Assembly (NCBI RefSeq): GCF_036250755.1
Contig: NZ_CP109583.1
Span: 4,712,001-4,776,000, forward strand
Direction: 5' to 3'
DNA from: Streptomyces uncialis
Lineage (GTDB): Bacteria; Actinomycetota; Actinomycetes; Streptomycetales; Streptomycetaceae
DNA: 64,000 nt
Made by a program: the position numbers and the translations under genes. Numbering within the stretch: position 1 is the first letter of the stretch; every line of letters begins with the position of its first letter. Below, one piece after another: positions 21,520 through 57,702 of this stretch. Below the pieces are notes generated by a model that had not been told where the DNA came from, ran no database searches, and saw only the letters and a program-made list of their open reading frames with translations.

Positions 21520-22037
21520 GGTGCACGTATTCACGGCTGTGCGGGTCGCTCGTGGGTGCGCAGTTCCTCGCGCCCCTGGATGCTGCCCCAGCCGGTTGTC
21601 CGTCGGGTGCGGGGCGGCCCTCGTCTTTGCGCAGTTCCCCGCGCCCCTTCGGGGTCGCCTCGGGTGCACGTATTCACGGCCGTGCGGGTCGGCCGCGCCC
21701 CTGGATGCTGCCTCAGCCGGTCGTCCGTCGGGTGCGGGGCGGCCCTCGTCTCTTGCGCAGTTCCCCGCGCCCCTTCGGGGTCGCCTCAGGTGCACGTCCC
21801 CACGACCGTGCGGGTCGGCCGCGTACCTGGATGCTGCCCCAGCCGGTCGTCCGTCGGGTGCGGGGCGGCCCTCGTCCTTTGCGCAGTTCCCCGCGCCCCT
21901 TCGGGGTCGCCTCAGGTGCACGTCCCCACGGCTGTGCGGGTACTCCGGGGGTGCGCAGTTCCCCGCGCCCCTTCGGGGCCCGCCTCGGGTGCACGTATTC
22001 ACGGCCGTGCGGGTCGTTTCCCCGCGTCCCTTCGGGG
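21520..22037. repeat. Composite intergenic repeat array 1
   Basis: The gap between two minus-strand genes (21291-22037) holds no credible gene. It carries the 20-bp core GCGCAGTTCCCCGCGCCCCT at 21558 (one mismatch), 21629, 21755, 21881 and 21953, plus a degenerate copy near 22018. Spacing is 71, 126, 126 and 72 bp. The 126-bp unit is a tandem repeat whose length is a multiple of three, which is why long spurious frames cross it. Between cores are words such as GGATGCTGCC, TCGGGTGCGGGGCGG and GGGTGCACGT. Most cores run into CCCCTTCGGGG hairpins. Confidence 0.9.
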
Positions 22038-23405
22038 TCACGGGGCCTTTGTCCGGCGTACCCGGCGGCGGCGGGGTGGCCGCTGTGCGGTCTCCCACGG
22101 GGGGCCGCCCGGTTCCTCCTCGTCCCAGAACCCCGTCCCCGCCTCCGTCCCCGTACCCCGCACCGCGAAGATCGTCGTGTCGTCGCCGAGGTGTCCGTTG
22201 CAGTGGGCGAGGGTCGCGTCCCGGACGAGGGTCACCAGCCGTTCCGGCCGGGCGTTCTCCGGATCGGCCGCCACCATCCCGGTGACCGCCTGGAACAGCG
22301 GGAAGAAGACGCCGTGCGCGTCGCGGGCCTCGGTCACCCCGTCGGTGACCAGGAGCACCGTCTCGTCGGGGCGGACGGCCACCCGCTGGACGAGTGCCGG
22401 GCTGTCGGAGAGGTCCCCGAGGCCGAGCGGCAGCCCGTCGCCGGGGACGAGTTCGCGGACCCCGGCGGGGCTGACGAACAGCGGCGGCTGATGGCCGAAG
22501 TTGACGATCTCCAGCCGGGACCCGGGCCGCTCGGACGGCGGGAACCCGAGCAGGACCGCGGTGGCGAACCGGTCGCCGTCGTCGCGGCCGACCCGCAGAC
22601 AGTAGTAGCGGTGGCGACGCATCCGGGTCTCCAGCCGCTCCGCGACGGTCGACAGCCGTGGCTCGTGGTACCCGGACTCCCGGAACGAGCCGAGCAGCAC
22701 CGCCGCCCCGTCGACCGCGCCGAGGCCCTTGCCCTGGACGTCCCCGAGCAGGACCCGGGTGCCGTGCCGGCTGGGCTGGATGTCGTAGAAGTCGCCGCCG
22801 ACCTTGGCGACGCTGTCCGCCGCGAGGTAGACGGCCGCGTGGTCGAGTCCGCCCCAGCGGGGCGGCAGCGGGCGCAGCACGGTGAGCCGGGTGGTGTCGG
22901 CCACGTCCCGCATGTGCAGGGCCCGCCGTTCGTTGCGCAGCCGTACCCAGCTGGCACCCGTGGCGAGCGCACCGCCGATGCCGACGAGGATGAAGTCGGG
23001 CAGCCCGGTCTGGAACTCGTGCGGCCAGGCGTTGTCCACCAGGGTGTACGCCGCCAGCGAGATCACCGCGAAGGCCGCCGTCCCCCACACCCCGCACAGC
23101 GCCGCCGCGATCCCCGGGACCATCACGATCCAGGAGGCCACCCGGAACTCGCCCCCGGTGTTCCAGTCGAACAGCACGAGGGCGACCAGCAGGACCAGCG
23201 GCGGCAGCCACGCCACGCTGTACCCCCGTATCCGCAGGGAGGACGTGGCGGCGGGCTCCTGACCGCCCGGCACGGGGAAGGAGCCGAGGGGCACCCCGGC
23301 GCGGGTACGCGGGCCCCCGTCGCGCCGGCGCACCCGGCCGCCGCCGGGTCGCGGCGGGCGGGCGCGGGAGTCCGGCGGGGCGGGGTGGGAGCTGCGGATA
23401 CGCAT
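22038..23405 (-). CDS. Membrane PP2C/SpoIIE-type serine phosphatase
   Basis: About 455 residues: a Pro/Arg-rich N-terminus, a hydrophobic region with about four membrane helices (about 60-165), then a SpoIIE/RsbU-like PP2C domain with metal-binding motifs KVGGDFYDI and LLGDVQGKGLGA and late motifs LLVTDGVTEARD and GDDTTIFAVR. Such phosphatases dephosphorylate anti-anti-sigma factors in partner-switching networks. ATG 23405 is chosen as first start after the upstream gap; the ribosome site is weak. The upstream membrane protein gene is 32 bp away, suggesting an operon. Confidence 0.88.
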   Translation of the reverse strand: MRIRSSHPAPPDSRARPPRPGGGRVRRRDGGPRTRAGVPLGSFPVPGGQEPAATSSLRIRGYSVAWLPPLVLLVALVLFDWNTGGEFRVASWIVMVPGIAAALCGVWGTAAFAVISLAAYTLVDNAWPHEFQTGLPDFILVGIGGALATGASWVRLRNERRALHMRDVADTTRLTVLRPLPPRWGGLDHAAVYLAADSVAKVGGDFYDIQPSRHGTRVLLGDVQGKGLGAVDGAAVLLGSFRESGYHEPRLSTVAERLETRMRRHRYYCLRVGRDDGDRFATAVLLGFPPSERPGSRLEIVNFGHQPPLFVSPAGVRELVPGDGLPLGLGDLSDSPALVQRVAVRPDETVLLVTDGVTEARDAHGVFFPLFQAVTGMVAADPENARPERLVTLVRDATLAHCNGHLGDDTTIFAVRGTGTEAGTGFWDEEEPGGPPWETAQRPPRRRRVRRTKAP

Positions 23406-23437
23406 AGGGCGCCGGGTGTCCGTAGCGGGACGGGGGC

Positions 23438-23863
23438 TCAGTCCTCGTTGATGTAGTAGTGGTAGTAGGTCGCCGCGAACACACCGGCGGCCACCGCGAG
23501 GGAGATCCCCGTGGAACGCAGCACGGAGTGCCCGGTCTGGCTGTAGCAGAAGCCGAAGGCGAGCCCGGCGAACACGGCCCAGGACATCGCGCGCGGTCCG
23601 GAGCGCAGGGCCGGTCCCACCCGGTGCAGTGCGAAGGCGACCGCGGCGACGGCGATACCGGCGGCGAAGCCGAGGAAGATGTTCCAGCCGGTGACCTGGT
23701 AGCCGCTCGCGTCCCGGCTGATCCCGGAGATCCAGAAGCCGTACACGACGCCCAGCAGGACGGGCAGCCAGGTGCCCGGCGCCATGGGGTCGACGGCGGA
23801 CGACGCGGCGGGGGTACGGGGACGCGGGGCCGGGGTCCCCGTTGCGGGGGCCGTGTGCGTCAT
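23438..23863 (-). CDS. Small four-helix membrane protein
   Basis: A 141-residue protein with a Pro/Thr-rich cytoplasmic start and four hydrophobic helices ([64 protein letters not shown]). GGAAG precedes ATG 23863. It is immediately upstream of the phosphatase gene, in an apparent operon. No function recognised. Confidence 0.75.
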
Positions 23864-24156
23864 GGGACCACTTCCTCTCCATGGGCGCTGCCGGGCGGGC
23901 CGGGTGTGCCGGGTGTGCCGTGCGGTCCGGCCGTCGCCCGTACCTCTCCAGAGCACACCCGGGGGGCCGTGCGGGCAACTTGTGCCGGGTCCCGGACCGC
24001 CGCCAAGAAATTCGCACACACATTCGGCAAGGACCGATGAGTTCCGGCCCCGCCACCGGTCCCCACTCCACGGACCGCACTCCCACGCGTTCGCCCGGCA
24101 CCGTCCGGCGCGGATCGTGGACCATGGATGAAACGGACGAAAGGCGCGAGGCGGAC

Positions 24157-25236
24157 ATGAGCAGCGCACAGAGCGGACGGGCGGCCACCACGGCCGGGCC
24201 CGCCATCGAGACCGAGGGCCTGGTGAAGACGTTCGGCGGCACCCGGGCGGTGGACGGCGTCGACCTCGTCGTCCCCGTCGGCACCGTCTACGGCCTCCTC
24301 GGGCCCAACGGCGCGGGCAAGACCACCACCGTCAGGATGCTGGCGACCCTGCTGCGGCCCGACGGCGGCCGGGCCCGCGTCTTCGGCCACGACGTCGTCC
24401 GCGAGGCCGACGCCGTACGCACCCGGGTCAGCCTCACCGGCCAGTACGCCTCCGTCGACGAGGACCTCACCGGCACCGAGAACCTGGTGCTGCTCGCCCG
24501 GCTGACCGGCCACGGCCGCAAGGCCTCGTACGGGCGGGCGGAGCAGCTGCTCACCGCGTTCGGACTTGAGGAGGCCGCCGAACGCCAGGTCAAGAACTAC
24601 TCCGGTGGCATGCGGCGCCGTATCGACATCGCCGCCTCCATCCTCAACACCCCTGACCTGCTCTTCCTCGACGAGCCCACCACCGGGCTCGACCCGCGCA
24701 GCCGCAACCAGGTCTGGGACATCATCCGCGCGGTCGTCGCCCAGGGCACCACCGTGCTGCTCACCACCCAGTACCTCGACGAGGCCGACCAGCTCGCGTC
24801 CCGGATCGCCGTCATCGACCACGGCCGGGTGATCGCGGAGGGCACCAAGGGCGATCTCAAGGCGTCCGTGGGCGCGGGTTCCGTGCATGTCCGGCTGCGG
24901 GACGCGGGCCGTCGCGAGGAGGCCCGGGAACTGCTCGCCCGCGTCCTCGACGCGCGGGTCGTCCTCGAACCCGACCCCGTCGCGCTCAGCGCCCGGATCG
25001 GGCAGGACACCGCGCCCGACGGGCACAACGCCGCCGACCAGGCGTCCCGCGCGCTCGCCGAACTGACCCGCGCCGGGATCACCGTCGACAACTTCGCGCT
25101 CGGCCAGCCCAGCCTGGACGAGGTCTTCCTGGCCCTCACCGACCGCCCCGTCACCCCCGCGCACGACCGGCCCCCGCATGACCGGCCCGCGAACGACCGG
25201 CCCACGAACGAGCCCACGGAAGAGGCAGCGGCATGA
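24157..25236 (+). CDS. DrrA-type ABC transporter ATP-binding protein
   Basis: A 359-residue ATPase of the daunorubicin-resistance DrrA family. Walker A is [10 protein letters not shown], the signature is [11 protein letters not shown], Walker B is [12 protein letters not shown], and the switch His lies in [13 protein letters not shown]. The C-terminal extension ([21 protein letters not shown] region) is typical of DrrA. ATG 24157 follows GAGGCGG; ATG 24124 is also in frame. Its stop overlaps the permease start by 4 bp, so the two are translationally coupled and probably form a drug or lipid exporter. Confidence 0.92.
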
Positions 25237-26081
25237 GTACCGTGACCACCACGGACGCCCAGGAACTCGCCCCCGTCCGGACCGACTCCCTCGCGGATCT
25301 GCTCATCGCGAAGGACCGGCCGCCCCGGCCGGGACCGCTCTCCGCGTCCCTCACCTTCGGCTGGCGGGCCATGCTGAAGATCAAGCATGTGCCGGAACAG
25401 CTCTTCGACGTGACCGCGTTCCCGGTCATGCTGATCCTGATGTACACGTACCTCTTCGGCGGGGCCCTCGCCGGGTCGCCCCAGGAGTACATCCAGTACC
25501 TGCTGCCCGGCATGCTGGTGATGTCCATCGTCATGATCACCATGTACACGGGTGTCGCGATCAACACGGACATCGACAAAGGCGTCTTCGACCGCTTCCG
25601 GACCCTGCCCGTGTGGCGGCCCGCCGCGATGGTCGGGTACCTCCTCGGCGACATGGTCCGCTATGTGATCGCCTCCATCGTGATGATCAGCGTCGGCCTG
25701 ATCATGGGCTTCCGCCCGGACGGCGGGCTCCTCGGCGTGCTCGCGGGAGTCGCGCTGCTGGTCGTCTTCTCGTTCGCGGTGTCGTGGGTGTGGACGATGT
25801 TCGGGCTGCTGCTGCGCACCGAGAAGTCCGTCATGGGCGTCAGCATGATGGTGATCTTCCCGCTGACGTTCCTCAGTGACATCTTCGTCAAGCCGGAGAC
25901 CATGCCCGGCTGGCTCCAGGCGTTCGTCAACCACAACCCGATCACCCATGTCGCGACGGCCGTGCGGGAACTGATGGCCGGACACTGGCCCGCCGCCGAA
26001 CTGGGCTGGGCGGTGGGCTGGTCCGCAGCTCTCGTCGTCGTCTTCGGGACGCTGACGATGCGGATGTACAACCGGAAGTAG
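25233..26081 (+). CDS. DrrB-type ABC-2 transporter permease
   Basis: A 282-residue ABC-2 permease with six predicted transmembrane helices, the partner of the preceding ATPase (ATGA overlap). Hydrophobic segments include [42 protein letters not shown] and [19 protein letters not shown], with the conserved [15 protein letters not shown] region near 215. DrrAB-like pairs export antibiotics or hydrophobic metabolites; the substrate here is not apparent. Confidence 0.92.
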
Positions 26082-26190
26082 CGCCCGGGGCGCGCCGGGG
26101 CCTCGTCGGTTCTCGCGGGTCCGCGCCGGTCCTCGCGGGCCAGGCCGCGCCGATCCTCGCGGGCCAGGTCACCCGGGCCGGGTACTCCGG

Positions 26191-27636
26191 TCAGTCGGCG
26201 GGACGGGGGGCCGGGCGGTCGGGGGCCAGGCGGGCCGCCCGGCGGGACAGATAACGGGCCTCCGGTTCGCTGAGGGTGCGCCGGGCGGCCTCCTGGTACG
26301 CCGCCCGCGCGGCCACCGGGTCCCCGGCGCGTTCCAGCAGATGGGCCCGTACGGCGTACAGCCGGTGGTTGCCCGCGAAGGGGCCCGGCGAAGGCGTCGC
26401 CTCCTCCAGCCGGTCCAGTTCGGTGAGGCCCGCCCGCGCGCCCCGCACCATCGACAGCGCCACCGCCCGCCCGAGCGCCGCCATCGGGTCCGGGCCGAGG
26501 GCCACCAGCACGTCGTACAGGGCCAGGATCTGCGGCCAGTCCGTGTCCCGCGCCGACGCCGCCTCACCGTGCAGCGCGGCCACGGCCGCCTGCACCTGGT
26601 AGACGCCGACGGGCGGGCGGCGCAGCGACTCCTCGACCAGGGCGGTGCCCTCGGCGAGGGCGGCACGGTCCCACAGGGCGCGGTCCTGCTCGTCCAGCGG
26701 CACGAGTTCGCCGTGCGGACCGGTACGGGCCGCGGCGCGGGCGTCGGTCAGCAGCATCAGCGCGAGCAGTCCCGTGACCCGGCCGTCGTCCGGCAGCAGC
26801 GCCCGCAGGACGCGGGTGAGCCGGATCGCCTCCCGCGCCAGGTCCCCGCGGCGCAGCCGCTGTCCGGACGTGGCCGTGTGCCCTTCGGTGAAGATCAGGT
26901 ACAGCACCTTCAGGACGGCCCCGAGCCGTTCGGCCAGCTCGGCGGGGTCCGGCCGCCGGAACGGGGTCCCCCGCAGCTTCTCCTTGGCGCGGCTCACCCG
27001 GCGGGCGATCGTCGCCTCCGGTACGAGATGGGCGCGGGCGATCTCGGCGGTCGTCAGTCCGCCGACCGCCCGCAGGGTCAGCGCGACCCGTGCCGCCGGG
27101 CTCAGTTCGGGACGGCAGCACAGGAACAGCAGGGTCAGGGTGTCGTCGCCGCTCGGCGCGCGGGACTCGCCGGGCGACGGCGCGGTGCGCTCGTGCGCGG
27201 GCACGAGCCGCGCCGCAGTCTCCTCCCGGCGGCGCCGGGACTCCTCCGCCCGCAGCAGATCCGTGAGCCGCCGGGACGCCACCTTGATCAGCCACCCCCG
27301 GGGGTTCGCGGGCACCCCGTCGGCCGGCCACTGACCGGCCGCCGCGAGCAGCGCCTCCTGGACGGCGTCCTCGGCCAGGCCGAAGTGCCCGTACCGGCGC
27401 ACCAGCGCGCCCAGCACCTGCGGCGCGTGCAGCCGCAGCAGATCCTCGACGCCGCCCGCGCGGTCACCGCCGCCGGCCCCGCTGCCGCTGACGTGTCCGC
27501 CGTCTGCGTCGCCGGGGCCGTCGCCGTCACCACGGACGCGGGCGTCGCCGTCACCACGGACGCGGGCGTCCCCGTCACCACGGGCGCGGGCGTCCCCGTC
27601 CCCGTCAGCGTCCCCGCGTCCGTCGCCGTCCCTCAC
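26191..27636 (-). CDS. ECF42-type RNA polymerase sigma factor with long C-terminal extension
   Basis: A 481-residue protein with sigma region 2 (DLLRLHAPQVLGALVRRYG then DAVQEALLAA), region 4 (LTLRAVGGLTTAEIARAHL then ATIARRVSRAKEKLR) and a roughly 220-residue TPR-like C-terminal extension. That extension and the adjacent DGPF/YCII gene define the ECF42 group, in which the extension controls activity in place of an anti-sigma factor. The start is GTG 27636 (GGGAG upstream), 31 bp after the YCII gene. The first 55 residues are Gly/Asp/Arg repeats encoded by tandem 24-bp units and are unlikely to be part of the sigma fold. Confidence 0.9.
   Translation of the reverse strand: MRDGDGRGDADGDGDARARGDGDARVRGDGDARVRGDGDGPGDADGGHVSGSGAGGGDRAGGVEDLLRLHAPQVLGALVRRYGHFGLAEDAVQEALLAAAGQWPADGVPANPRGWLIKVASRRLTDLLRAEESRRRREETAARLVPAHERTAPSPGESRAPSGDDTLTLLFLCCRPELSPAARVALTLRAVGGLTTAEIARAHLVPEATIARRVSRAKEKLRGTPFRRPDPAELAERLGAVLKVLYLIFTEGHTATSGQRLRRGDLAREAIRLTRVLRALLPDDGRVTGLLALMLLTDARAAARTGPHGELVPLDEQDRALWDRAALAEGTALVEESLRRPPVGVYQVQAAVAALHGEAASARDTDWPQILALYDVLVALGPDPMAALGRAVALSMVRGARAGLTELDRLEEATPSPGPFAGNHRLYAVRAHLLERAGDPVAARAAYQEAARRTLSEPEARYLSRRAARLAPDRPAPRPAD
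27520..27591. repeat. Three 24-bp tandem repeats in the sigma-factor N-terminus
   Basis: Near-identical 24-bp units starting at 27520, 27544 and 27568, with a partial fourth. On the minus strand they encode 8-residue Gly-Asp-Gly-Asp-Ala-Arg-Val-Arg repeats. Copy number could vary without changing frame. Confidence 0.85.
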
Positions 27637-27667
27637 CGCTCGCTCCCGGTACGTGGTTCCCGGACCG

Positions 27668-28087
27668 TCAGGCGGTGATCTCGCCCTGGGCCATCAGGGG
27701 CCGGATCACCACCGGCCGGATCGCCGATCCCGCGGGCTGCGGACACCGGGTGACCCGGGCCGCGATCTCCGTGACCCGGTCCAGGCTCGCGCAGTCCAGG
27801 ATCCAGTATCCGGCGAGGACCTCCTTCGTCTCCCCGTAGGGACCGTCCGTGACCACCGGCTGCGGATCGTCGGGGGCGCCGGTCACGAACCGCGCCAGCG
27901 CGGGCTCCGTCAGCCCCTGGCCGTCGATCAGTTCCCCGCTCTCCGCGAGATCGTCGCTCAGCGCGCTCATGAACGCGCCCATCGCGACCAGGTCCTGCTC
28001 GGTGTACGCGGGACTCCCGTCGGAGCTGTCGCCCCGCATGGCCGCGTAGTCCGCCTGTGTACCGAGGATCATCACCATGTACTTCAT
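27668..28087 (-). CDS. DGPF/YCII-domain protein linked to ECF42 sigma factor
   Basis: A 139-residue YCII-related protein. It begins MKYMVMILG and carries the family signature VVTDGPYGETKEVLAGYWIL (DGPF motif, here DGPY). AGGGAG precedes ATG 28087. Genes of this kind are the conserved partners and likely targets of ECF42 sigma factors, and here it lies directly upstream of and co-directional with one. The biochemical role is unknown. Confidence 0.9.
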   Translation of the reverse strand: MKYMVMILGTQADYAAMRGDSSDGSPAYTEQDLVAMGAFMSALSDDLAESGELIDGQGLTEPALARFVTGAPDDPQPVVTDGPYGETKEVLAGYWILDCASLDRVTEIAARVTRCPQPAGSAIRPVVIRPLMAQGEITA

Positions 28088-28628: not shown

Positions 28629-28656
28629 GGGGACCTCTTACGGTCTAGGCAGACAG

Positions 28657-28678: not shown

Positions 28679-28717
28679 TGACGAAACCGGGTAATGGACG
28701 GCTGTTAGGGTATTCAC

Positions 28718-31654: not shown

Positions 31655-32531
31655 CCGGTTTCCCCCCGGGGCCGCGGGTCGCCTTCACTCGCGCCCCCGG
31701 GGGTCCGTCCGGCTGGACGTACTTGTCCCTGTGCGGGTCGGACGGGGGTGCGCAGTTCCCCGCAGGTCGCCTTCGCTCGCGCCCCGAGGTCTGTCCGGCT
31801 GGACGTACTCCGTTCCGTGCCGTCGCTCGTGGGTTTCGCGCAGTTCCCCGCGCCCCTGGGTGGTGCCCCTTCGGGTTTGTCCGTCGGGTGCGGGTCTGCC
31901 CTCGTCTTCGCGCAGTTCCCCGCGCCCCTGGATGCTGCCCCGTTGCTGTCGCTCTTCGGGTGCGGGCCGGTTCTCGTTTTCGCGCAGTTCCCCGCAGGTC
32001 GCCTTCGCTCGCGCCCCGAGGTCTGTCCGGCTGGACGTACTCCGTTCCGTGCCGTCGCTCGTGGGTTTCGCGCAGTTCCCCGCGCCCCTGAAGGGGCACT
32101 CCTCTCCTCTCGCAGTCGCATGGCTGCGGGAGGGGGTGGGCGGGAATCTCTGCCCGCAGACTCCGATGCTCTTCAGTCGGGCAAGGGGGACGTCCGACCG
32201 AGCGCGTTGGAGCGAGGACGGAGAATCCCGACCGGCACCGACCCGAAGAACAACAGAACGCGCCCCAAAGGGGCGCGGGGAACTGCGCGAAGACGAGAAC
32301 CGCCCCGCACCCGAAGAGCGACGACCAGAGGCAGCATCCAGGGGCGCGGGGAACTGCGCGAAACCACCGGGCGACGGCACAGGAAACAGGTGCGCCCACC
32401 GGGACAGACCTGGGAAGCGCAAGCGAAGGCGACCTGCGGGGAACTGCGCAGACCACCGAGCGACGGCACAGCAACGAAGTACGTCCCGCCGGACAGACCT
32501 GGGAAGCGCAAGCGAAGGCGACCCGCGGGGA
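31655..32531. repeat. Composite intergenic repeat array 2 (two facing halves)
   Basis: Between convergent genes, with no credible gene inside. Core GCGCAGTTCCCCGCGCCCCT or its truncated form starts at 31750, 31838, 31910, 31982 and 32070 on the plus strand, and its reverse complement at 32269, 32340 and about 32430. Spacing is 88, 72, 72, 88 and then 71, 90. 31750-31857 and 31982-32089 are identical over 108 bp. Between the two halves (about 32123-32260) lies a second conserved block also found inverted in array 3. The long frames crossing this region are repeat artefacts. Confidence 0.9.
32260..32276. terminator. Hairpin attached to repeat core
   Basis: GCGCCCC-AAA-GGGGCGC, a perfect 7-bp stem that runs directly into the reverse-complement repeat core. 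It could terminate transcription from either convergent gene. Confidence 0.55.
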
Positions 32532-37680: not shown

Positions 37681-38180
37681 GTCGACCTCGCAGGTCGCCT
37701 TCGCTTGCGCTTCCGAGGTCTGTCCGGCGGGACGCGCTTGGTCCTGTGCCGTCGCTCGGTGGTTTCGCGGTTCCCCGCGGTTCGCCTTCGCTTGCGCTTT
37801 CCAGGTCTGTCCGGCGGGACGCGCTTGGTCCTGTGCCGTCGCTCGGTGGTTTCGCGGTTCCCCGCGGGTCGCCTTCGCTTGCGCTTCCGAGGTCTGTCCG
37901 GCTGGACGCACTCCGTTCATGTGCCGTCGCTCGGTGGTTTTGCGCAGTTCCCCGCGCCCCTTTGGGGCGCTCCCGGGCGGTTCTTCGGGTCGGGGCCGGT
38001 CGGGATTCTCCGTCCTCGCTCCAACGCGCTCGGTAGGGACGGGAAGGTGGCCCCACTGGTGGCGTCGGAGTCTGCGGGCAGAGATTCCCGCCCACCCCCT
38101 CCCGCAGCCGGGCGACCGCGCGGGGAGGGGGCGAAAGGCAACCTCGGGAGGGCGAGCGGAGGCGGCCCGCCCGGCCGGGG
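37681..38180. repeat. Composite intergenic repeat array 3
   Basis: The gap between convergent genes. Three direct copies of an ~87-bp unit start at 37693, 37779 and 37867 (words GGTCGCCTTCGCTTGCG, GGTCTGTCCGGCGGGACGCG, GTGCCGTCGCTCGGTGGTTT). The third ends in a full core at 37942-37961. From 37970 to about 38108 the array carries the second conserved block of array 2 in inverse orientation, with a different internal ~35 bp. No gene. Confidence 0.9.
37954..37970. terminator. Hairpin attached to repeat core in array 3
   Basis: GCGCCCC-TTT-GGGGCGC, a perfect 7-bp stem extending from the core, between convergent genes. Confidence 0.55.
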
Positions 38181-40001: not shown

Positions 40002-40466
40002 ACGTTCAGGATGCACCCGCCCGACAACGAACGGACAACCGGGTGCCCGCCCGCCCAAAGGGGCGCGGGGAACTGCGCGAAACCACCGAGCGACGGCACA
40101 GGAACGAGTACGCCCAGCACAGAAAACCCAGGGGCGCGGGGAACTGCGCGAAGACGAGAACCGGCCCGCACCCGGAGAACAACAGCAGGAGGCAGCATCC
40201 AGGGGCGCGGGGAACCGCGCACCCCACGAACGACGGCACAGGAACGAGTCCGCCCACCCGGAGAGACCTGGGAAGCGCAAGCGAAGGCGACCCGCACAGG
40301 AAACCCAGGGGCGCGGGGAACTGCGCGAAGACGAGAACCGGCCCGCACCCGGAGAACAACAGCAGGAGGCAGCATCCAGGGGCGCGGGGAACTGCGCACC
40401 CCCGTCCGACCCGCACGGGGACAAGTACGTCCCGCCGGACAGACCCAGAAGCGCAAGCGAAGGCGA
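40002..40466. repeat. Composite intergenic repeat array 4
   Basis: A gap between two minus-strand genes. Reverse-complement cores start at 40059, 40130, 40201 (one mismatch), 40307 and 40378; spacing 71, 71, 106, 71. The block starting at 40124 recurs at 40301 (offset 177) and matches for about 90 bp. Inter-core words include GACGAGAACCGGCCCGCACC and GGAGGCAGCATCC. No gene. Confidence 0.9.
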
Positions 40467-48281: not shown

Positions 48282-49438
48282 TTGTCCTCCCCGTCCGCGA
48301 ACGACGCCTGGTAGGCGGCGAACTGCGCGCGCTCCTCGTCGACGAGCGCGTGCCCGTCCGCGTACACGTTGTCGAAGATGGCCAGATGCTCCGGGTCCGG
48401 CATGGCCCGCACCACCTCACGCACCCGCTTGCCGAGTGCCTCGCTCTCGGCCTCCAGCTCCGCGAAGAACGCCTCGTCCGCGTGCGACTGGGCCTCCAGG
48501 TACGCGCGCAGCCGGATGATCGGGTCCTTGGCCTCCCAGGCCGCCCGCTCGTCGTCGTGGCGGTAGCGGGTGGGGTCGTCGGACGTGGTGTGCGCGCCCA
48601 TCCGGTACGTGAACGCCTCGACCAGGGTCGGCCCCTCGCCCCGGCGGGCGCGCTCCAGCGCCCAGCGGGTGACGGCGAGACACGCGAGGACGTCGTTGCC
48701 GTCGACCCGTACACCGGGGAAGCCGTAGCCGCGTGCGCGCTGGTACAGCGGCACCCGGGTCTGCTTCTCGGTCGGCTCGGAGATCGCCCACTGGTTGTTC
48801 TGGCAGAAGAACACCACGGGCGCGTTGTAGACCGCCGAGAAGGTGAACGACTCCGCCACGTCGCCCTGGCTGGAGGCGCCGTCACCGAAGTACGCGATCA
48901 CCGCCGAGTCCGCGCCGTCCTTGGCGATGCCCATGGCGTAGCCGGTGGCGTGCAGGGTCTGCGAGCCGATGACGATCGTGTACAGGTGGAAGTTGTTGGT
49001 GGTGGGGTCCCAGCCGCCGTTGTTGACCCCCCGGAACATCCCGAGGAGCAGTGTGGGGTCGACGCCCCGGGTCCAGGCGACGCCGTGCTCCCGGTACGTG
49101 GGGAACACGTAGTCGTCCGGGCGGGTGGCGCGGCCCGAGCCGATCTGCGCGGCCTCCTGGCCGAGCAGCGAGGCCCACAGGCCCAGCTCGCCCTGGCGCT
49201 GGAGGGAGGTCGCCTCGGCGTCGAAGCGGCGGGTGAGGACCATGTCGCGGTAGAGCCCGCGCAGCTCCTCGGGGGTGATGTCCTCGACGAACGCGGCGTA
49301 CTCGGCGAGCGCCTTGGTCGGCCTGACCCGCTTGCCCTCGGGGGTCAGAAGCTGGACGAGGTCGGGCTGGCCGCCCGGGGTCTTCTTCGCGGCGGCCCGC
49401 TTGCGCGGCCCCCGCGTGACAGTGCTCTCCACGGTCAC
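48278..49438 (-). CDS. bkdA: Branched-chain 2-oxoacid dehydrogenase E1 alpha subunit
   Basis: A 386-residue ThDP-binding subunit. The ThDP motif is YFGDGASSQGD...CQNNQWA; the phosphorylation-loop region YRMGAHTTSDDPTRYR is also present. GTG 49438 follows GGAGGAG by 8 bases; the frame extends further up without a better start. It is first in the bkdA-bkdB-bkdC operon, facing a response-regulator gene across a 317-bp gap with a strong palindrome. Confidence 0.95.
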   Translation of the reverse strand: MTVESTVTRGPRKRAAAKKTPGGQPDLVQLLTPEGKRVRPTKALAEYAAFVEDITPEELRGLYRDMVLTRRFDAEATSLQRQGELGLWASLLGQEAAQIGSGRATRPDDYVFPTYREHGVAWTRGVDPTLLLGMFRGVNNGGWDPTTNNFHLYTIVIGSQTLHATGYAMGIAKDGADSAVIAYFGDGASSQGDVAESFTFSAVYNAPVVFFCQNNQWAISEPTEKQTRVPLYQRARGYGFPGVRVDGNDVLACLAVTRWALERARRGEGPTLVEAFTYRMGAHTTSDDPTRYRHDDERAAWEAKDPIIRLRAYLEAQSHADEAFFAELEAESEALGKRVREVVRAMPDPEHLAIFDNVYADGHALVDEERAQFAAYQASFADGEDK

Positions 49439-50994: not shown

Positions 50995-50999
50995 CCGGG

Positions 51000-51137: not shown

Positions 51138-52862
51138 TCAGGGGGTGGTGCCGCCGTCGCCGCCCGGGTCGCCCGCACCGCCGTTGCCGCTGCCGGCCGC
51201 GCCGCCCTCACTGCCCGCGGCGCCGCCCTCGCTTCCGGCCGAGCCGCCCTCGCTGCCACCCGGGGACTCCCCCGTGCCGGGGGACTCGCCGGTGCCGGGG
51301 GACTCCCCGGTGTCGCCGCCGTCCGTCTCGCCGCCGGTGGTGGGCGCGCCGGTCGGTTCCCCGGTGGTGTCGTCCCCGCTCGGGGTGGGCGACGTACCGG
51401 TCGTCGGCTGACCGCCGCCCGGCTGCTGGGAGTAGGACGAACGGCCGCTGCCGGGCTGCTGCTGCTTCGGCGGGGTCCAGGTGTCGTCGTCGCCGCCGTC
51501 GTCGTCGCCGCCGGTGCCCGGACCGGTGTCCTGGCTGGGCGTCGACTCCTTGGACTCCTTGGCGGAGGGGCTCGGCTTGTCCGACTTGGTCACCGAGGGC
51601 GGCTTGTTGGTGTCCGGTTCCTTGGTCTTGCCCGACAGCTGGCTGACGGCCACCGCGATACCCACGGCGATGGCGACGACCGCGAGGGCGGCCAGCAGCC
51701 ACATCTTGTTGCGGCCGCGGCCCGGACCGCCGGAGCCGTGGTCGTCGTACCCGCCGTAGCCGCCGCCCGCGCCCTGCGGCATCTGCTGGGGGATCTGCGA
51801 GGTGCCCGAGTCGGGGTGCGGCAGCGCGGTGGTCCCCGCGACGCCCATCCCCATGCCCATCCCCATCGCGGGGGTGTGACCGCCCTCGTGGGTGTCGACC
51901 GGCCCGGTGTTCCAGGTACCGGTGTGGCTGCCCTGCTCGTACAGCATCTGGATGCCGTACTGGATCAGGCCGCGCATCTCCTCGGCGGTCTGGAAGCGGT
52001 CGTCGGGGTCCTTCGCCAGCGCCCGCATGACCAGGCCGTCCAGCTCCGGCGGCACCCCGTCGGAGACCTCGGAGGGCGGGACCGGGATGTCCTGGACGTG
52101 CTGGTAGACCACCGACAGCGGGGTCTCGCCGGTGAAGGGCGGACGCAGGGCGAGGAGTTCGTAGAGCAGACAGCCCGTGGCGTACAGGTCGGAGCGGTGG
52201 TCGACGGCCTTGCCGAGCGCCTGCTCCGGGGAGAGGTACTGCGGGGTACCCATGACCATGCCGGTCTGGGTCATGGTCGACTGCGCGCCGTGCAGGGCGC
52301 GCGCGATGCCGAAGTCCATGACCTTCACGGCGCCGTTGTGCGTGATGATGACGTTCGCGGGCTTGATGTCCCGGTGCACGATGCCGTGCTCGTGGGAGTA
52401 GGCGAGCGCCTCCAGCACCCCGGAGACGATGATCAGCGCCTGTTCCGGCCCGGGGGCCTCGGCGTTGATCAGCAGATCGCGGATCGTGCGGCCCTCGACG
52501 ATCTCCATGACGATGTAGGGGACCACCTGGCGGCCCACCTGGTCCTCGCCGGAGTCGTACACGGCCACGACGGCGTGGTGGTTGAGCCCGGCGACCGACT
52601 GTGCCTCACGGGTGAAGCGGGCCTTGGACACCGGGTCCTCGGCGAGGTCCGAGCGCAGCAGCTTCACGGCGACGGTCCGGCCGAGCCGGACGTCCTCGGC
52701 GGCGAACACCTCGGCCATCCCGCCCCGGCCGAGCCGGTGCGTCAGCCGGTAGCGGCCGTCCCCGACCAGTCCGCCGTTGCCCCACAGCTCCGGCGCGTCA
52801 GACATACCGCCACCACCGGCCTCGGGGTCGGACGGGCCCTGGGCGCGCTGCGTCTGTGCCAT
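51138..52862 (-). CDS. Membrane Ser/Thr protein kinase without PASTA domains
   Basis: A 574-residue Hanks-type kinase. N-lobe LGRGGMAEVFAAED and AVKLL, catalytic loop VHRDIKPANV, DFG in VMDFGIA, activation loop MTQTGMVMGTPQYLSPEQA. The kinase domain ends near residue 300; a Met/Gly-rich juxtamembrane region and one transmembrane helix (MWLLAALAVVAIAVGIAVAVS, about 390) follow. The outside part is disordered, made of Ser/Thr/Gly/Pro runs with GESPGT and GSEGGAA repeats, so it lacks the usual PASTA sensor. Divergent from a PASTA kinase. Confidence 0.93.
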   Translation of the reverse strand: MAQTQRAQGPSDPEAGGGGMSDAPELWGNGGLVGDGRYRLTHRLGRGGMAEVFAAEDVRLGRTVAVKLLRSDLAEDPVSKARFTREAQSVAGLNHHAVVAVYDSGEDQVGRQVVPYIVMEIVEGRTIRDLLINAEAPGPEQALIIVSGVLEALAYSHEHGIVHRDIKPANVIITHNGAVKVMDFGIARALHGAQSTMTQTGMVMGTPQYLSPEQALGKAVDHRSDLYATGCLLYELLALRPPFTGETPLSVVYQHVQDIPVPPSEVSDGVPPELDGLVMRALAKDPDDRFQTAEEMRGLIQYGIQMLYEQGSHTGTWNTGPVDTHEGGHTPAMGMGMGMGVAGTTALPHPDSGTSQIPQQMPQGAGGGYGGYDDHGSGGPGRGRNKMWLLAALAVVAIAVGIAVAVSQLSGKTKEPDTNKPPSVTKSDKPSPSAKESKESTPSQDTGPGTGGDDDGGDDDTWTPPKQQQPGSGRSSYSQQPGGGQPTTGTSPTPSGDDTTGEPTGAPTTGGETDGGDTGESPGTGESPGTGESPGGSEGGSAGSEGGAAGSEGGAAGSGNGGAGDPGGDGGTTP

Positions 52863-53189
52863 CAGTCCTCGCCGTCGTTTCTGCCCGCGTGCGCGCGGTG
52901 GTTGTCACGGTCTCCGTCGGCCCACGCTACAGCCTTCCCCGGCCCCTCCGTTCCGAGATGGACCGGCCATCGAACCCTTAACGTGCGCTTCGGGGCAAAT
53001 CCTGTGTACGTCGTACAGAGACGCTGTAACGCTTCCGCGACGCTTCACCCGCTCAGGGTCACGGAACGGGTCCCCCAACTTGACGTGTCGGTACCCTCCG
53101 GCAGACTTGGCCGGTAATAGCGCAATCGATCACCGAACGCGGAAGCCGGGCGGGCACTGAGCCACCCGGGCCGATGGGGGACGCAAGTC
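52863..53189. promoter_or_regulatory. Divergent promoter region of the two kinase genes
   Basis: No gene. TGTAC-GTC-GTACA at 53005-53017 is a perfect palindrome in the middle, and ACGCTGTAACGCTTC nearby contains a short direct repeat of ACGCT. A shared operator for both kinases is possible. Confidence 0.5.
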
Positions 53190-54851
53190 ATGAGCCAGGA
53201 CGGCGCGCACGGTCGCTACGCAGGGCGTTCGGTCGGTGGCGGACGCTACCAGCTACGGGATCTGCTCGGCGAGGGCGGCATGGCCTCGGTGCACCTCGCG
53301 TACGACTCCGTCCTGGACCGCCAGGTAGCGGTCAAGACGCTGCACACCGAACTGGGCCGGGAGCCCGCGTTCCGTGAGCGGTTCCGCCGCGAGGCGCAGT
53401 CCGTGGCGAAGCTCACGCACACCAATATCGTCTCGGTCTTCGACACCGGCGAGGACGAGCTGAACGGCTCCACCACGCCGTACATCGTCATGGAGTACGT
53501 CGAGGGCCGGCCGCTCGGTTCGGTACTGGAATCGGACATGGCGCAGTTCGGCGCGATGCCCACCGACAAGGCGCTGAAGATCACCGCGGATGTGCTGGCG
53601 GCGCTGGAGATCAGCCACGAGATGGGCCTGGTCCACCGGGACATCAAGCCGGGCAACGTCATGATGACCCGGCGCGGTGTCGTCAAGGTCATGGACTTCG
53701 GCATCGCGCGCGCCATGCAGTCCGGGGTCACGTCGATGACGCAGACCGGCATGGTGGTCGGCACCCCGCAGTACCTCTCCCCCGAACAGGCCCTCGGCCG
53801 GGGCGTCGACGCCCGTTCGGACCTCTACTCCGTCGGCATCATGCTGTTCCAACTCGTCACCGGACGGCTGCCGTTCGAGGCGGACTCCGCACTGGCCATC
53901 GCGTACGCGCATGTCCAGGAGGAGGCGGCCTCGGCGTCCTCGATCAACCGGGCGGTGCCCCCGGCGGTCGACGCGCTGATCACCCGGGCGCTGCGGAAGA
54001 ACCCCAACGAGCGGTTCCCCAGCGCGGAGTCCATGCGGGACGAGTGCCTGCGGGTCGCCCAGTCGCTCCAGCAGGTCGCGCCGAGCATCGTGCCCGGCGC
54101 CCGGACGGCGAGCGGGTCGGGTGTCGGCTCGGCCGTCTTCCCGCCCGTCGACCGGACCGCGGCGCCGCCGCCGGGTCCCGTCCACACGCCGTACCAGCCG
54201 GGCCCCTACGGCCCCTCGACACCCGCGCCCGGCCCGAACCACGCCCCCACCCCCGGTTACGGCTATCCGCAGCAGCAGGGGTACGGGACCCCGGCCCCGC
54301 CCGTCGGGTACGGCGTCCCGCAGCAGGCGCCGACCCCGCCGCCCGCGTACGCCATGGCACCCCACCAGCAGCAGGGGCCGGGCGGTGGCCGCCGGTCGCG
54401 GGGCCGCGGGGCGGGGGTCGCCGTCGCGATCGCCGTCGCGATCGCCATCGTCGGCGGCGCGGCCTACACCTTCACGAACAACAACAACGACCCCGGCGAC
54501 GACGAGGCCGGGGGCAACGCTTCGCCGTCGGTGTCCGCCAGTGCGGACACCGGTGGCGAGTACCGGGGTCCGGACACCACGAAGGTCATCGAAGAGACCG
54601 AGTGCACGGAGCCCGAGACCTCGTACAGCGACGAGAACATGGTCGAGATGCCCGACTTCACGCTGAAGCACATCGGCTCGGTGAAGGAGTGCCTCCAGGC
54701 GGCGGGCTGGCAGTTCGACACGACGGACGTCGCCGAGAACACCTACGGGGACGGCGCGGTGATGAAGCAGTTCCCCCGGGCGGGCACCGACTTCGACCCC
54801 GAGGACCCCCCCACCATCCAACTGGACGTCTCCACCGGCAAACCCCAGTAG
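53190..54851 (+). CDS. Membrane Ser/Thr protein kinase with one PASTA domain
   Basis: A 553-residue Hanks-type kinase of the PknB kind. LLGEGGMASVHLAYD and AVKTL, VHRDIKPGNV, VMDFGIA, GTPQYLSPEQA. After a Pro/Tyr/Gln-rich linker (about 300-400) comes a single transmembrane helix (VAVAIAVAIAIVGGAAYTF) and a C-terminal PASTA-like domain (VEMPDFTLKHIGSVKECLQAAGW in the start region). PASTA domains bind muropeptides or lipid II and tie kinase activity to cell-wall state. A hairpin terminator follows 30 bp after the stop. Confidence 0.93.
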   Translation: MSQDGAHGRYAGRSVGGGRYQLRDLLGEGGMASVHLAYDSVLDRQVAVKTLHTELGREPAFRERFRREAQSVAKLTHTNIVSVFDTGEDELNGSTTPYIVMEYVEGRPLGSVLESDMAQFGAMPTDKALKITADVLAALEISHEMGLVHRDIKPGNVMMTRRGVVKVMDFGIARAMQSGVTSMTQTGMVVGTPQYLSPEQALGRGVDARSDLYSVGIMLFQLVTGRLPFEADSALAIAYAHVQEEAASASSINRAVPPAVDALITRALRKNPNERFPSAESMRDECLRVAQSLQQVAPSIVPGARTASGSGVGSAVFPPVDRTAAPPPGPVHTPYQPGPYGPSTPAPGPNHAPTPGYGYPQQQGYGTPAPPVGYGVPQQAPTPPPAYAMAPHQQQGPGGGRRSRGRGAGVAVAIAVAIAIVGGAAYTFTNNNNDPGDDEAGGNASPSVSASADTGGEYRGPDTTKVIEETECTEPETSYSDENMVEMPDFTLKHIGSVKECLQAAGWQFDTTDVAENTYGDGAVMKQFPRAGTDFDPEDPPTIQLDVSTGKPQ

Positions 54852-54881
54852 GGGCCGGAGAGCCGGACAGCCGACGGAAGG

Positions 54882-54899
54882 CGCCCCGAAAGGGGCGCG
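54882..54899. terminator. Hairpin terminator after the PASTA kinase
   Basis: GCGCCCC-GAAA-GGGGCGC, 7-bp stem with a stable GAAA tetraloop, 30 bp past the stop, directly joined to the first repeat core of array 5. Confidence 0.75.
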
Positions 54900-55170
54900 G
54901 GGAACCGCGCACCCCACGAGCGACCCGCACAGGAAAAAGTACGCCCAGGAACGACAACCCAGGGGCGCGGGGAACTGCGCACCCACGTCCGTACCCGCAC
55001 AGGGACAAGTAGGGGACAGGTGGAACCCCAGGGGCGCGCGGAACCGCGCGAAACCCACGCCCGTACCCGCGCAGCGACAAGCACCGCGTAGCGACAACCA
55101 CGGGGACCGGGGGGGAACTACGGGGACCGGGGGGAACCCCGGGGCGCGGGAGGCCCAGAGCATAGGGCCC
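54892..55170. repeat. Composite intergenic repeat array 5
   Basis: Between convergent genes (54852-55208). Cores in reverse-complement orientation start at 54892, 54961 and 55030, with exact 69-bp spacing and diverged third copy. Two GGGGGAACTACGGGGACCG-like words follow near 55105-55140. No gene. Confidence 0.85.
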
Positions 55171-55208
55171 TCCCGGGGGCTCAGACGCTTCGGGGAGGGC
55201 CCGGCGGA

Positions 55209-55745
55209 TCAGAGGTACGGGCCACCCGTACGGCCACCCGGGTGAACCTGCTCATCGTCGCCCCCGACACCCGGCGGAAGCGCCCGCCGCATCTGCTCCA
55301 GCTGCGCCCGCGCTGCCATCTGCTGCGCGAACAACGTGGTCTGGATGCCGTGGAAAAGCCCCTCCAGCCACCCCACGAGCTGCGCCTGCGCGATCCGCAG
55401 CTCCGCGTCGCTCGGTGTCGCCTCGTCCGTGAACGGCAGCGACAGCCGCTCCAGCTCGTCCACCAGCTCCGGCGCGAGACCGTCCTCCAGCTCCTTGACC
55501 GAGCTGGAGTGGATCTCCTTGAGGCGCTGACGGCTCGCCTCGTCGAGAGGTGCCGCCCGCACCTCCTCCAGAAGCTGCTTGATCATGCTGCCGATGCGCA
55601 TGACCTTGGCGGGCTGCTCCACCATCTCCGTCACCGGCACCTCGCGGAAGTCCTCGTCTCCTCCGCCGCCCAGTGCCATTCCGTCCTGGCCCACGACCAG
55701 GACCTGGGGGCTGTCGGGCGACCGTTCGTTCCTCGGCATCTCCAT
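55209..55745 (-). CDS. bpa: Bacterial proteasome activator (Bpa)
   Basis: A 178-residue protein of the Bpa (PafE) family, an ATP-independent ring-shaped activator that docks on the 20S proteasome and feeds it unfolded proteins. The helical core runs from about residue 35 to 155 (VMRIGSMIKQLLEEVRAAPL, LGWLEGLFHGIQ-type helix). The C-terminus is GGPYL, matching the GQYL-type docking motif that inserts into the proteasome alpha ring. ATG 55745 is the first of two close ATGs (55739). The PadR gene lies 47 bp upstream in the same direction. Confidence 0.92.
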   Translation of the reverse strand: MEMPRNERSPDSPQVLVVGQDGMALGGGGDEDFREVPVTEMVEQPAKVMRIGSMIKQLLEEVRAAPLDEASRQRLKEIHSSSVKELEDGLAPELVDELERLSLPFTDEATPSDAELRIAQAQLVGWLEGLFHGIQTTLFAQQMAARAQLEQMRRALPPGVGGDDEQVHPGGRTGGPYL

Positions 55746-55790
55746 GGGCCCATTGTCTCGCACCCGGGCGCCCGGCGGAGTGGTGCCCCC

Positions 55791-55804
55791 GATCATTCAT
55801 GATC
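55791..55804. promoter_or_regulatory. Perfect palindrome between padR and bpa
   Basis: GATCAT-TC-ATGATC covers the padR stop codon and lies about 50 bp upstream of bpa. It could be a PadR operator controlling bpa, or a chance AT-rich symmetry. Confidence 0.4.
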
Positions 55805-56362
55805 CACCCCCCGGCCGGCGGGTCCGCCCCGGCCGGCCGTCCCCCGCAGCCGGGACTCGCAGTGGTCCAGCCAGCGGGCCTCCGCCTCGGCGCGGAACAC
55901 CTGCTGTTCCAGGAGCAGCAGCCGTGCCACCTCGTCGGGACGGGTGGGCCGCGACGCGAGGACCGCGAACCACCGCTCGTTGTGATCGCGCAGCGCCCGC
56001 GCCACATGACGCCGCTGGGCGTCGATCACCGCCCCCACGTCGACCACGGAGGTCTCCATGGCCATCGCCAGTTTGATGGCCAGCTCGTCCCGGGCCGGGC
56101 TCACCCGGTCCACCGGCCGTCCGAACCAGTCCGCCAGCTCCGCGCGGCCCTCGTCGGTCAGCGCGTACAGGGTGCGGCCCGCGTCGTCCGTACCGCTCTG
56201 GACGACCAGCCCGTCCCGTTCCAGCCTGCCGAGGGTCGTGTACACCTGCCCTACGTTCAGCGGCCAGGTCGTGCCCGTCCGCGCCTCGAACTCCGAGCGC
56301 AGACGCGAGCCGTAGCGCGGTCCCCGGTCGAGGAGGGCGAGCAGGCCGTGGCGTATCGACAT
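55793..56362 (-). CDS. PadR-family transcriptional regulator
   Basis: A 189-residue PadR regulator. The winged HTH occupies residues 1-85 (IRHGLLALLDRGPRYGSRL, then NVGQVYTTLGRLERDGLV and GRTLYALTDEG); a helical C-terminal domain mediates dimerisation. ATG 56362 is taken by alignment to family starts; the ribosome site is weak. Co-directional with bpa. Confidence 0.9.
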   Translation of the reverse strand: MSIRHGLLALLDRGPRYGSRLRSEFEARTGTTWPLNVGQVYTTLGRLERDGLVVQSGTDDAGRTLYALTDEGRAELADWFGRPVDRVSPARDELAIKLAMAMETSVVDVGAVIDAQRRHVARALRDHNERWFAVLASRPTRPDEVARLLLLEQQVFRAEAEARWLDHCESRLRGTAGRGGPAGRGVDHE

Positions 56363-56426
56363 AGTCGGAAGAGATACCGGCCCCGGGGGCGGGGCGCCAG
56401 AGGCTTCCCCGCCGCCGTGGCGCCCG

Positions 56427-57233
56427 TCACAGGGCGCGCAGCCGCCAGCCCATGTACCCGAGGCCGAGGCCGACCAGGACCAGTCCGGTGCCCAGCGGAA
56501 GGATGCCGAGGGGGGTGCCGTAGGAGCGGGACGGCGCCGGGGGCACGTCGTCCGCCGCGTGGTCGACGGTCCCGGGGACGGCGGCCTCGTCGTCCTGCGT
56601 GTCCGGTTCCGGCGCGGTGTCCGGCGTCCACATCGGCAGCGGCCGGCCGGGGCGGTCGGGCAGCGGCTCCCGGGGCACGTGCGGGGGACGCGAGGTCCGG
56701 GGCGACGGCGACGTACGGGGTTCGGCGCTCTCGCGGGGGCCGGTGCGGCGCTCGGGCCGTCCGGGCCTGGGCCGTCCCTCACCCGGTTTGCTCCCGGCCC
56801 GTGACTCACCGGGCCACGGCACCTCGATCCGGATGCCGGGCGGCGCGGGCGCCGGTACGGCCGGCACAGGGGCGACGGGTACGGGGGTCACCGGGACCGG
56901 GGTGACCGGCGCGGGGCCGGTCGGCGGATGTCCGGGCGGCGAGGTGCCGGACGGCGGGCGGCCCGTGGCGGTCGGTGCCGGGTGGACCGGGGCGGTACCG
57001 CGTGGTGGCCCCGGGGTGCCGGACGGGTGCCCGGCGCTGACCGGCTGGAACGGCTGGGCGGGCCGGGGCGGTGCGGGGGAGTGCGCGCCGGGCGCCGTGG
57101 ACGGCCTGCCCGGCAGGGCCGCCGCCGCCACCGGCAGCAGGACCACCTGGCCCGTCAGTGCCAGACCGAGGAGCAGCCGCGCGGCTCCGGTGCCGCACAC
57201 CCAAGAACCCACGGTGACCGCCCTCCAGGCCAT
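56427..57233 (-). CDS. Secreted/membrane Pro-rich protein
   Basis: A 268-residue protein with an N-terminal hydrophobic signal or anchor (LLLGLALTGQVVLLPVAAAAL), a long Pro/Gly/Arg/Ser-rich low-complexity middle with TPVPVTPVPVAPVPA repeats, and a C-terminal transmembrane helix (GILPLGTGLVLVGLGLGYMGW) plus short basic tail. This resembles surface-anchored actinomycete proteins, though no LPxTG-type sorting signal is present. ATG 57233 preferred; TTG 57254 is upstream in frame. Confidence 0.68.
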   Translation of the reverse strand: MAWRAVTVGSWVCGTGAARLLLGLALTGQVVLLPVAAAALPGRPSTAPGAHSPAPPRPAQPFQPVSAGHPSGTPGPPRGTAPVHPAPTATGRPPSGTSPPGHPPTGPAPVTPVPVTPVPVAPVPAVPAPAPPGIRIEVPWPGESRAGSKPGEGRPRPGRPERRTGPRESAEPRTSPSPRTSRPPHVPREPLPDRPGRPLPMWTPDTAPEPDTQDDEAAVPGTVDHAADDVPPAPSRSYGTPLGILPLGTGLVLVGLGLGYMGWRLRAL

Positions 57234-57702
57234 GCCCCCAGACCATCGTGACAAGCCTCACACACCCCCCGAACCCAAGCACCCCGAACACCCCCAAAAG
57301 AACCCCACCCACGCCCCCCGGCCCCGGCCCTCTCGCCCCCGAGCCCTCCGGCTCCCGGCTCCCGGCTCCCGGCTCCCGGCTCCCGGTGAGGCAACCCGCA
57401 CCCGCGTGACGACCCCAGCCAGGCAGGGCGCCCCCGAAGGGGCGCGGGGAACTGCGCAAAACCACGGACGCCCCGCACCCGCGTGACCGCCGCAACCGGG
57501 CAGAGGGCCCCGAAGGGGCGCGGGGAACCGCGCACCCCCGGACGCCCCGCACAGGAACAAGCGGGCCCAGGTGGCAAAACCCCGGCGCCGCAAGCGAAGG
57601 CGCCCCGCGAGCCGAGACCCGCGATCGCCGGACGGTCGGACCGCCGGACGGACAGGCCCGCCGAACAGTCGGACCGGACGGACCGTCACACGCGCCGGAC
57701 GG
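57234..57702. repeat. Composite intergenic repeat array 6
   Basis: A gap between minus-strand genes. Two reverse-complement cores start at 57438 and 57514 (76 bp apart), each with GCCCC-GAA-GGGGC hairpin potential; 57428-57445 forms GCGCCCC-4-GGGGCGC. A run of five CGGCTCC-type heptamers lies at about 57350-57385. No gene. Confidence 0.85.

Follow-up and report, generated by a model that had tools for sequence, protein, structure and literature searches.

An abundant intergenic repeat family of Streptomyces with inverted end repeats and a structured central hairpin

The 64,000-bp stretch of the Streptomyces uncialis chromosome analysed here (contig NZ_CP109583.1, positions 4,712,001 to 4,776,000; hereafter the window) carries six intergenic arrays of a 20-bp repeat, the core (GCGCAGTTCCCCGCGCCCCT). 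An initial annotation, drawn from the letters alone, had proposed that the arrays could be a non-autonomous element, a family of terminators or attenuators, or a source of small RNAs. We found that the core reaches a very high copy number in the genome that carries the window (G000; 9,258,615 bases in three contigs), that its opposed copies in this genome face inward, that the hairpin often lying between them has a conserved and strand-specific structure, that neighbouring repeat units resemble one another in tandem, and that at one site the element is present in some genomes and absent from others. The initial observation is thereby confirmed on a larger scale than was claimed; it had overlooked how many copies there are, that cores face inward and that a conserved hairpin lies at the centre of arrays 2 and 3. 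We tentatively read the arrays as a non-coding, non-autonomous and mobile composite family of Streptomyces, similar to REPINs and NIME elements, that may be transferred as a folded strand and then duplicated in tandem, and we place the chance of this reading slightly short of even. Of the options first proposed, the non-autonomous element is the best fit to the dispersed copies, the inward ends, the presence and absence at one site and the strand-specific hairpin, its mobility being what we infer from them.

Abundance and architecture of the core repeat

In the window the full core was found at 21 sites with no more than three mismatches (16 of them exact), against 0.07 expected and with none of 100 shuffles giving 21, and its 5' half (GCGCAGTTCCCCGC) at 24 sites with no more than one mismatch, in line with the earlier count of about 24 cores and with the view that the pattern exceeds chance. 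The half-core sites beyond the full cores are three truncated cores in array 2 (Table 1) and a stray one-mismatch site at 48315. The genome-wide search that the initial annotation had proposed brought out a clear excess, as G000 holds 1,139 exact cores (576 and 563 by strand) and 1,380 with at most one mismatch, and the core letters read backwards do not occur in it at all. Exact cores are present in 172 of 295 genomes of the genus, at 0 to 1,139 copies per genome, G000 and G059 (728 exact copies) being the two richest. Beyond Streptomyces the core was seen in one further genus of the same family (G504, 199 copies), and it was absent from 15 genomes of other families.

The G000 chromosome was sampled in 98 evenly spaced 20-kb stretches, which together with the window make up 22% of it. 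These stretches contained 399 cores at three mismatches or fewer, at a density that rises from 35 per Mb over the 13 stretches of the left 1.2 Mb to 249 per Mb over the 78 central stretches and falls to 7 per Mb over the 7 at the right end. One 20-kb stretch sampled from each of the two small contigs contained none. Five successive sampled stretches without a core were noted at 5.10-5.49 Mb, near a change of sign in the GC skew and possibly proximal to the origin.

The spacing of same-strand neighbours in the sample is dominated by a single class, as 243 of 278 spacings measure 69-77 bp. Two classes had been described; the shorter one is real, while the supposed class of 86-126 bp does not represent a second kind of unit, since the longer spacings (29 of 278) are spread over 88-163 bp, and at least some of them, as read at window positions 21648-21755 and in the long-spacing clusters, contain a truncated core. 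The spacers themselves belong largely to a few families, with 237 of 278 in the six largest clusters, and for this reason CRISPR-like spacers were rejected. Of 177 pairs of adjacent spacers, 13.6% exceed 90% identity, compared with 0.25% of unlinked pairs, which suggests that the arrays grow by local duplication.

When neighbouring cores of the G000 sample are opposed and lie within 400 bp of each other, they are without exception in the order plus then minus (49 junctions, with none in the reverse order), so that they face inward. At 41 of these junctions the sequence between the cores is an element of about 110 nt with a direction of its own, plus flanks; one such element (L079) is truncated. 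The remaining eight junctions hold other content, including two stretches of 356-396 bp (L118:1469-1864 and L060:2820-3175) that read like short coding sequences, the former with a resemblance by eye to a helix-turn-helix protein. Seen from the hairpin, all 49 copies of its motif in the sample and window are faced by cores, 41 on both sides and eight on one side, and none is flanked the wrong way. Among the matches listed, hand counts of close pairs gave, in G222, 17 that face inward at distances of 47-370 bp and none that faces outward, and likewise 12 inward and no outward pairs in G059, in which the outer unit measures 57 bp and the centre is built of differing short GC hairpins. The minimal forms, found in G212 and G463, are perfect core palindromes with a loop of 2-5 bases and, in G212, a folding energy of -46.8 kcal/mol. 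In a genome with outward-facing pairs, G424 (L422-L425), each core of a pair can apparently base-pair with sequence lying beyond it, which is the opposite of the G000 plan.

Fold and distribution of the central hairpin

The central element folds on one strand as a bulged hairpin with a conserved asymmetric internal loop, bulged A positions and a variable tip. With 40 copies from two genomes (G000 and G222) aligned by MAFFT, RNAalifold predicted 25 pairs, none of which is broken and four of which are changed on both sides. A covariance model (R1) was built from the same two genomes on the better-folding strand, and a second alignment was made by fitting to it a single match per genome from 30 genomes, both training genomes included. 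In this second alignment 99.3% of 746 pair cells are paired and 11 of the 25 pairs are compensated; none of 500 shuffles did equally well by any of five measures, and partners slid by 1-3 columns paired in at most 51.8% of cases. The structural conservation that the initial annotation had asked for by way of a covariance model was therefore found, as was the excess of cores elsewhere in the genome, and the lack of such results was what it had named as counting against its claim.

The pairing also points to one strand. Counted as cells rather than events, G-U pairs occur on the modelled strand 100 times and A-C never in the first alignment, and 22 times against 2 in the second; on account of the former count this strand is taken to be the constrained one. 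On this strand the two window hairpins likewise fold better than their shuffles (z of -3.8 and -4.4); on the complement z is -2.1 and -1.4. Diversity (pi) among 31 G000 copies is 0.04 in the arms and 0.35 in the tip, and in G222 0.007 and 0.28; in five other genomes the difference between arm and tip is smaller. Among the G000 copies of the first alignment linked stem variants segregate, and the combinations seen still pair by way of G-U, as if copies exchange segments.

A scan with 4,227 Rfam covariance models returned nothing at the gathering threshold in the window and nothing at E <= 1 in array 2. At seven other hairpin loci it returned only the Scr3202 small RNA, twice (L331:2435-2526 and L352:1950-2041, the same place), and a cobalamin riboswitch (L329:2212-2350), all of them away from the hairpin; since two known RNA families were recovered, the scan evidently works at those loci. 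The central hairpin matches no catalogued RNA family and is apparently undescribed. Searches of the open-access literature in PMC by core string and by topic, subscription journals and preprints lying outside them, listed no title or opening of an abstract with an account of the family, and the accessible portions of PMC6749651, PMC2864571 and PMC1590033 mention Streptomyces in other connections only.

By sequence motif the hairpin was found in 215 copies in G000, with single, chance-like matches in 15 other genomes of the 295 and a weak partial match in G222, where a diverged relative of the hairpin occupies the equivalent place. The idea that the centre is private to G000, which rested on this search, was overturned by R1, which matched at E <= 0.001 in 87 of the 295 genomes (both training genomes included) and at least twice in 61 of the 87; its copy numbers are lower bounds, as at most 13 candidates per genome were scored and 13 of the 87 genomes reached 13. 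R1 had no match in 17 genomes outside the genus, in 80 named loci around the M18 peptidase, or in G059 with its many cores. Exact cores are present in 85 of the 87 hairpin genomes and in 87 of the 208 others, a hand count uncorrected for relatedness. At one hairpin locus from each of 30 genomes, a core with no more than four mismatches lies within 300 bp in 13 cases and faces the hairpin in 12 of these; at 40 further loci from six genomes, six of these loci overlapping with the 30, a core lies within 400 bp in 17 and faces the hairpin in 15.

Orthologous sites and known repeat systems

A comparison of orthologous sites was possible for the hairpin of G252 whose neighbours are a GNAT acetyltransferase gene and a gene convergent with it. 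Out of 30 loci compared, 19 had both anchors, and in these the hairpin is present in six (one being the query), truncated in one and absent from 12, the gap at the hairpin-less loci measuring 35-98 bp in ten and 189 and 203 bp in two. For array 3, whose own gap is 500 bp, no core was found in the matching gap of any of the 43 records with both anchors; this gap is 29-224 bp long in 28 of them and contains other sequence of 1.5-3.9 kb in 15. Both comparisons show discrete gain or loss of the element, and not the mechanism. None of 80 loci compared for array 2 had both anchors, and for array 4 the gene content differs, with cores in one of 43 anchored loci.

MITEs are non-coding intergenic elements of high copy number with inverted terminal repeats. 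The family is likewise non-coding, intergenic and of high copy number, may share the inverted terminal repeats, and differs from MITEs in the tandem arrays formed by its ends; the cores point inward at 49 of 49 junctions in G000 and outward at 4 of 4 listed in G424, and the ends of the element are not fixed. Integron attC sites are imperfect hairpins with bulged bases, a conserved stem, a variable tip and one constrained strand. The central hairpin is like them in its bulged form, its pattern of stem and tip and its strand constraint, but it is dispersed singly and not in cassette arrays.

According to the accessible text of PMC3116915, REPINs too are short extragenic repeats in spaced inverted doublets, with predicted hairpins, amplification within genomes and compensatory changes, and the present family is a high-copy short extragenic repeat in hairpin-forming inverted doublets. 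It is unlike REPINs in that the two core-richest genomes have no Y1_Tnp/RAYT, that a long cargo hairpin lies between its ends and that its outer units form tandem arrays, and unlike REPs in that the core has no GTAG or GTGG head of the kind given in the REP table of PMC2817692, as far as that source is available. REP elements elsewhere have been tied to RAYT transposases (available text of PMC3116915 and PMC2817692). No Y1_Tnp domain was found in G000 at E <= 0.001, and in all it was absent from nine of 17 core-bearing genomes tested (G000, G059, G222, G189, G032, G103, G109, G252 and G504); in the eight genomes that have it, the four loci examined carry neither core nor hairpin. Mobilisation of the G000 family by RAYT was rejected on these grounds. 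In the accessible text of PMC3898611, the dRS3 and RS repeats of NIME are likewise described as a 20-bp repeat in hundreds of copies with families of longer spacer elements of 30-160 bp, in intergenic arrays of similar size, and most spacers of the present family do fall into such families between 20-bp repeats. There dRS3 is given as ATTCCC(N8)GGGAAT with 6-bp terminal inverted repeats, from which the core differs in sequence and symmetry; further differences from NIME are the inward-facing cores of G000 and the structured hairpin that is often central.

Gene context and competing explanations

Gene calls come from a simple GC-position script (71% coding), which makes the classes of gaps approximate. 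All six arrays lie between predicted genes, as had been claimed, and the three said to lie in convergent gaps (31.7-32.5, 37.7-38.1 and 54.9-55.1 kb) do so, the other three being in codirectional ones. Of the 420 cores in the sample and window, only four lie within predicted genes and 14 at the edges of stretches, and their orientation relative to a codirectional gene shows no preference (129 versus 118). Nor does the hairpin prefer a direction relative to codirectional genes, being in the same and opposite sense 9 and 15 times in G000 and 11 and 9 times elsewhere, the latter set consisting of 70 loci, with six places included twice, one locus from G000 and 30 loci that have no predicted gene on one or both sides. 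Short simple tandem repeats were seen beside two of the arrays, at window positions 57340-57390 (CCGGCTC-like, array 6) and 21425-21465 (CGTCGTC-like, array 1).

Table 1. Positions of the arrays, hairpins and truncated or terminator-like cores in the window
Feature	Position	Strand	Remarks
Array 1, cores only	21520..22037	+	Cores 21558, 21629, 21755, 21881 and 21953, all +; flanked by two - genes
Array 2, complete composite	31655..32531	.	+ cores 31838, 31910 and 32070; hairpin; - cores 32269 and 32340; convergent gap
Array 2, central structured hairpin	32133..32244	+	Training sequence of the covariance model; z -3.8 on this strand
Array 2, truncated core (5' half)	31750..31763	+	Half-core search
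Array 2, truncated core (5' half)	31982..31995	+	Half-core search
Array 2, truncated core (5' half)	32436..32449	-	Half-core search
Array 2, innermost - core	32259..32277	-	Own GC hairpin and T-rich tail, terminator-like; sole such site in 31.0-41.5 kb
Array 3	37681..38180	.	Single + core 37942 and hairpin; convergent gap
Array 3, central structured hairpin	37987..38098	-	Training sequence of the covariance model; z -4.4 on this strand
Array 4, cores only	40002..40466	-	Cores 40059, 40130, 40201, 40307 and 40378, all -
Array 5, cores only	54852..55208	-	Cores 54891, 54961 and 55030, all -; convergent gap
Array 6, cores only	57400..57702	-	Cores 57438 and 57514, both -

In the mobile composite family that we propose, the basic form would be two 20-bp end repeats, inverted and facing inward, either alone as a hairpin or around a cargo, of which the commonest in G000 would be the bulged hairpin of about 110-140 nt constrained on one strand. 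This strand may fold when it becomes single during replication or repair, and a putative enzyme might act on the folded strand, with the element being copied or pasted into intergenic DNA; transposition would then be the cause of the dispersal, and single-stranded DNA, rather than RNA, the acting form. Selection would purge copies from coding and promoter DNA, and therefore survivors would be found at the 3' ends of genes. After arrival the outer units of core plus spacer would multiply locally by tandem duplication, which could give each lineage its own unit length, such as 69-73 bp in G000 and 57 bp in G059. A bolder proposal, which we consider somewhat unlikely, is that the hairpin, with more than 200 copies and 1,100 ends in one genome, represents a new actinobacterial class of mobile nucleic acid, which an enzyme unrelated to Y1/RAYT would move, either as a folded single strand of DNA or by way of an RNA copy, using the inward 20-bp repeats as boundaries.

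Several observations weigh against mobility of this kind. No core lies within 300 bp of the hairpin at 17 of the 30 loci from other genomes, or within 400 bp at 23 of the 40 further loci. The inward rule had to be rejected as a law for the genus, as all four close pairs among the 21 of 54 copies listed for G424 face outward, and as a single core points away from the hairpin at each of L336 (G220, among the 30 loci), L381 (G140) and L384 (G007), the cores of L381 and L384 being matched at four mismatches. In G267 the middle of the hairpin, a region that includes the inner stem, shows no extra variability (0.09 versus 0.14 in the arms). No mobilising enzyme was found, Y1_Tnp being the sole family searched for, and the search for a plasmid or phage vehicle was negative, with no match in plasmids and phages to one 321-bp element of G140 and no exact core in viral contigs. 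At the one locus compared no target-site duplication was seen, its flanks being too diverged to show one. The direction of the hairpin relative to replication (15 minus to 10 plus, and 10 minus to 14 plus) has no clear strand bias, and insertion with such a bias was set aside. Finally, the G252 site also fits an old insertion followed by losses, as G067 resembles a deletion and G189 seemingly keeps a left remnant.

The position of the arrays at gene ends raises the question of whether they are 3'-end elements, that is, bidirectional terminators or stabilisers of RNA 3' ends, in which opposed cores pair and stop convergent transcription and arrays multiply as extra terminators that are useful or harmless. 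Cores occupy 31 of the 261 convergent gaps and 52 of the 720 codirectional ones, compared with 4 of the 229 divergent gaps (Fisher test of convergent against divergent, 6e-6), although these counts depend on the crude gene caller, and 304 of the 420 cores have a stop as the closest end of a predicted gene; the perfect palindromes of G212 and G463 would suit this role as well. A scan for a GC hairpin followed by a T-run found a single site in 31.0-41.5 kb, which does lie on an array core, yet shuffles gave a mean of 3.3, so that terminators are not enriched. In addition, cores have no preferred orientation relative to codirectional genes, a bulged hairpin of 110 nt would be longer and more conserved than termination needs, and the 12 genomes without the element at the G252 site, ten of them with gaps of 35-98 bp, evidently manage. 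We therefore regard this explanation as unlikely for the family as a whole; of the terminator or attenuator option first proposed, what stands is a plausible side-role, given the gene-end location with its avoidance of divergent gaps, the palindromes and the one terminator-like core. Studies of 3' ends in Streptomyces report both U-rich and U-lacking ends, and in their accessible text make no mention of such a repeat (PMC8780764, PMC8269248). The central hairpin could instead be a non-coding RNA of defined structure that has been amplified, such as one that binds a protein or is processed, with the cores as boundary signals, as its strand-specific G-U pairing, its compensatory changes, its strong fold on one strand only and its internal loop, bulged A positions and tip would suggest. 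Single-stranded DNA predicts identical pairing evidence, however, and the hairpin shows no orientation preference towards neighbouring genes, no promoter-like site was found in the scanned region (sigma-70 consensus only, 0.2 expected), and more than 200 motif copies in one genome contrast with 208 of 295 congeners in which the model finds no match, which leaves this explanation unlikely to much the same degree.

Growth without transposition was also considered, in which ancient terminator palindromes would have become neutral satellites by slippage and been homogenised by gene conversion. The local similarity of tandem spacers, the linked stem variants that segregate among G000 copies and the rarity of cores in the chromosome arms are consistent with it, as is the G252 copy at the test locus, whose similarity to paralogues in the same genome (0.90-0.95) exceeds that to most orthologues (0.77-0.91). 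The G007 copy, however, is not homogenised in this way, its values being 0.87 to G104 and 0.77-0.85 to copies in its own genome, and slippage yields neither new dispersed sites nor a hairpin between inward cores at 41 of 49 junctions, making this a quite improbable origin. Classical REP or REPIN elements moved by a RAYT transposase would account for the hairpin-forming inverted doublets and their extragenic, high-copy occurrence, but the lack of Y1_Tnp in G000 with its 1,139 copies and in G059 with its 728, and of a GTAG or GTGG head on the core, makes them very improbable indeed.

The arrays reveal a large intergenic repeat system in a genus that is heavily mined for antibiotics, and the covariance model R1 and the locus with presence and absence of the hairpin are now available for testing each possibility. 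If the element moves, its enzyme may be new and act on folded DNA; if the hairpin is transcribed, it would be a new multi-copy structured RNA; and if the arrays terminate transcription, they would help to explain how convergent genes are insulated in high-GC genomes.

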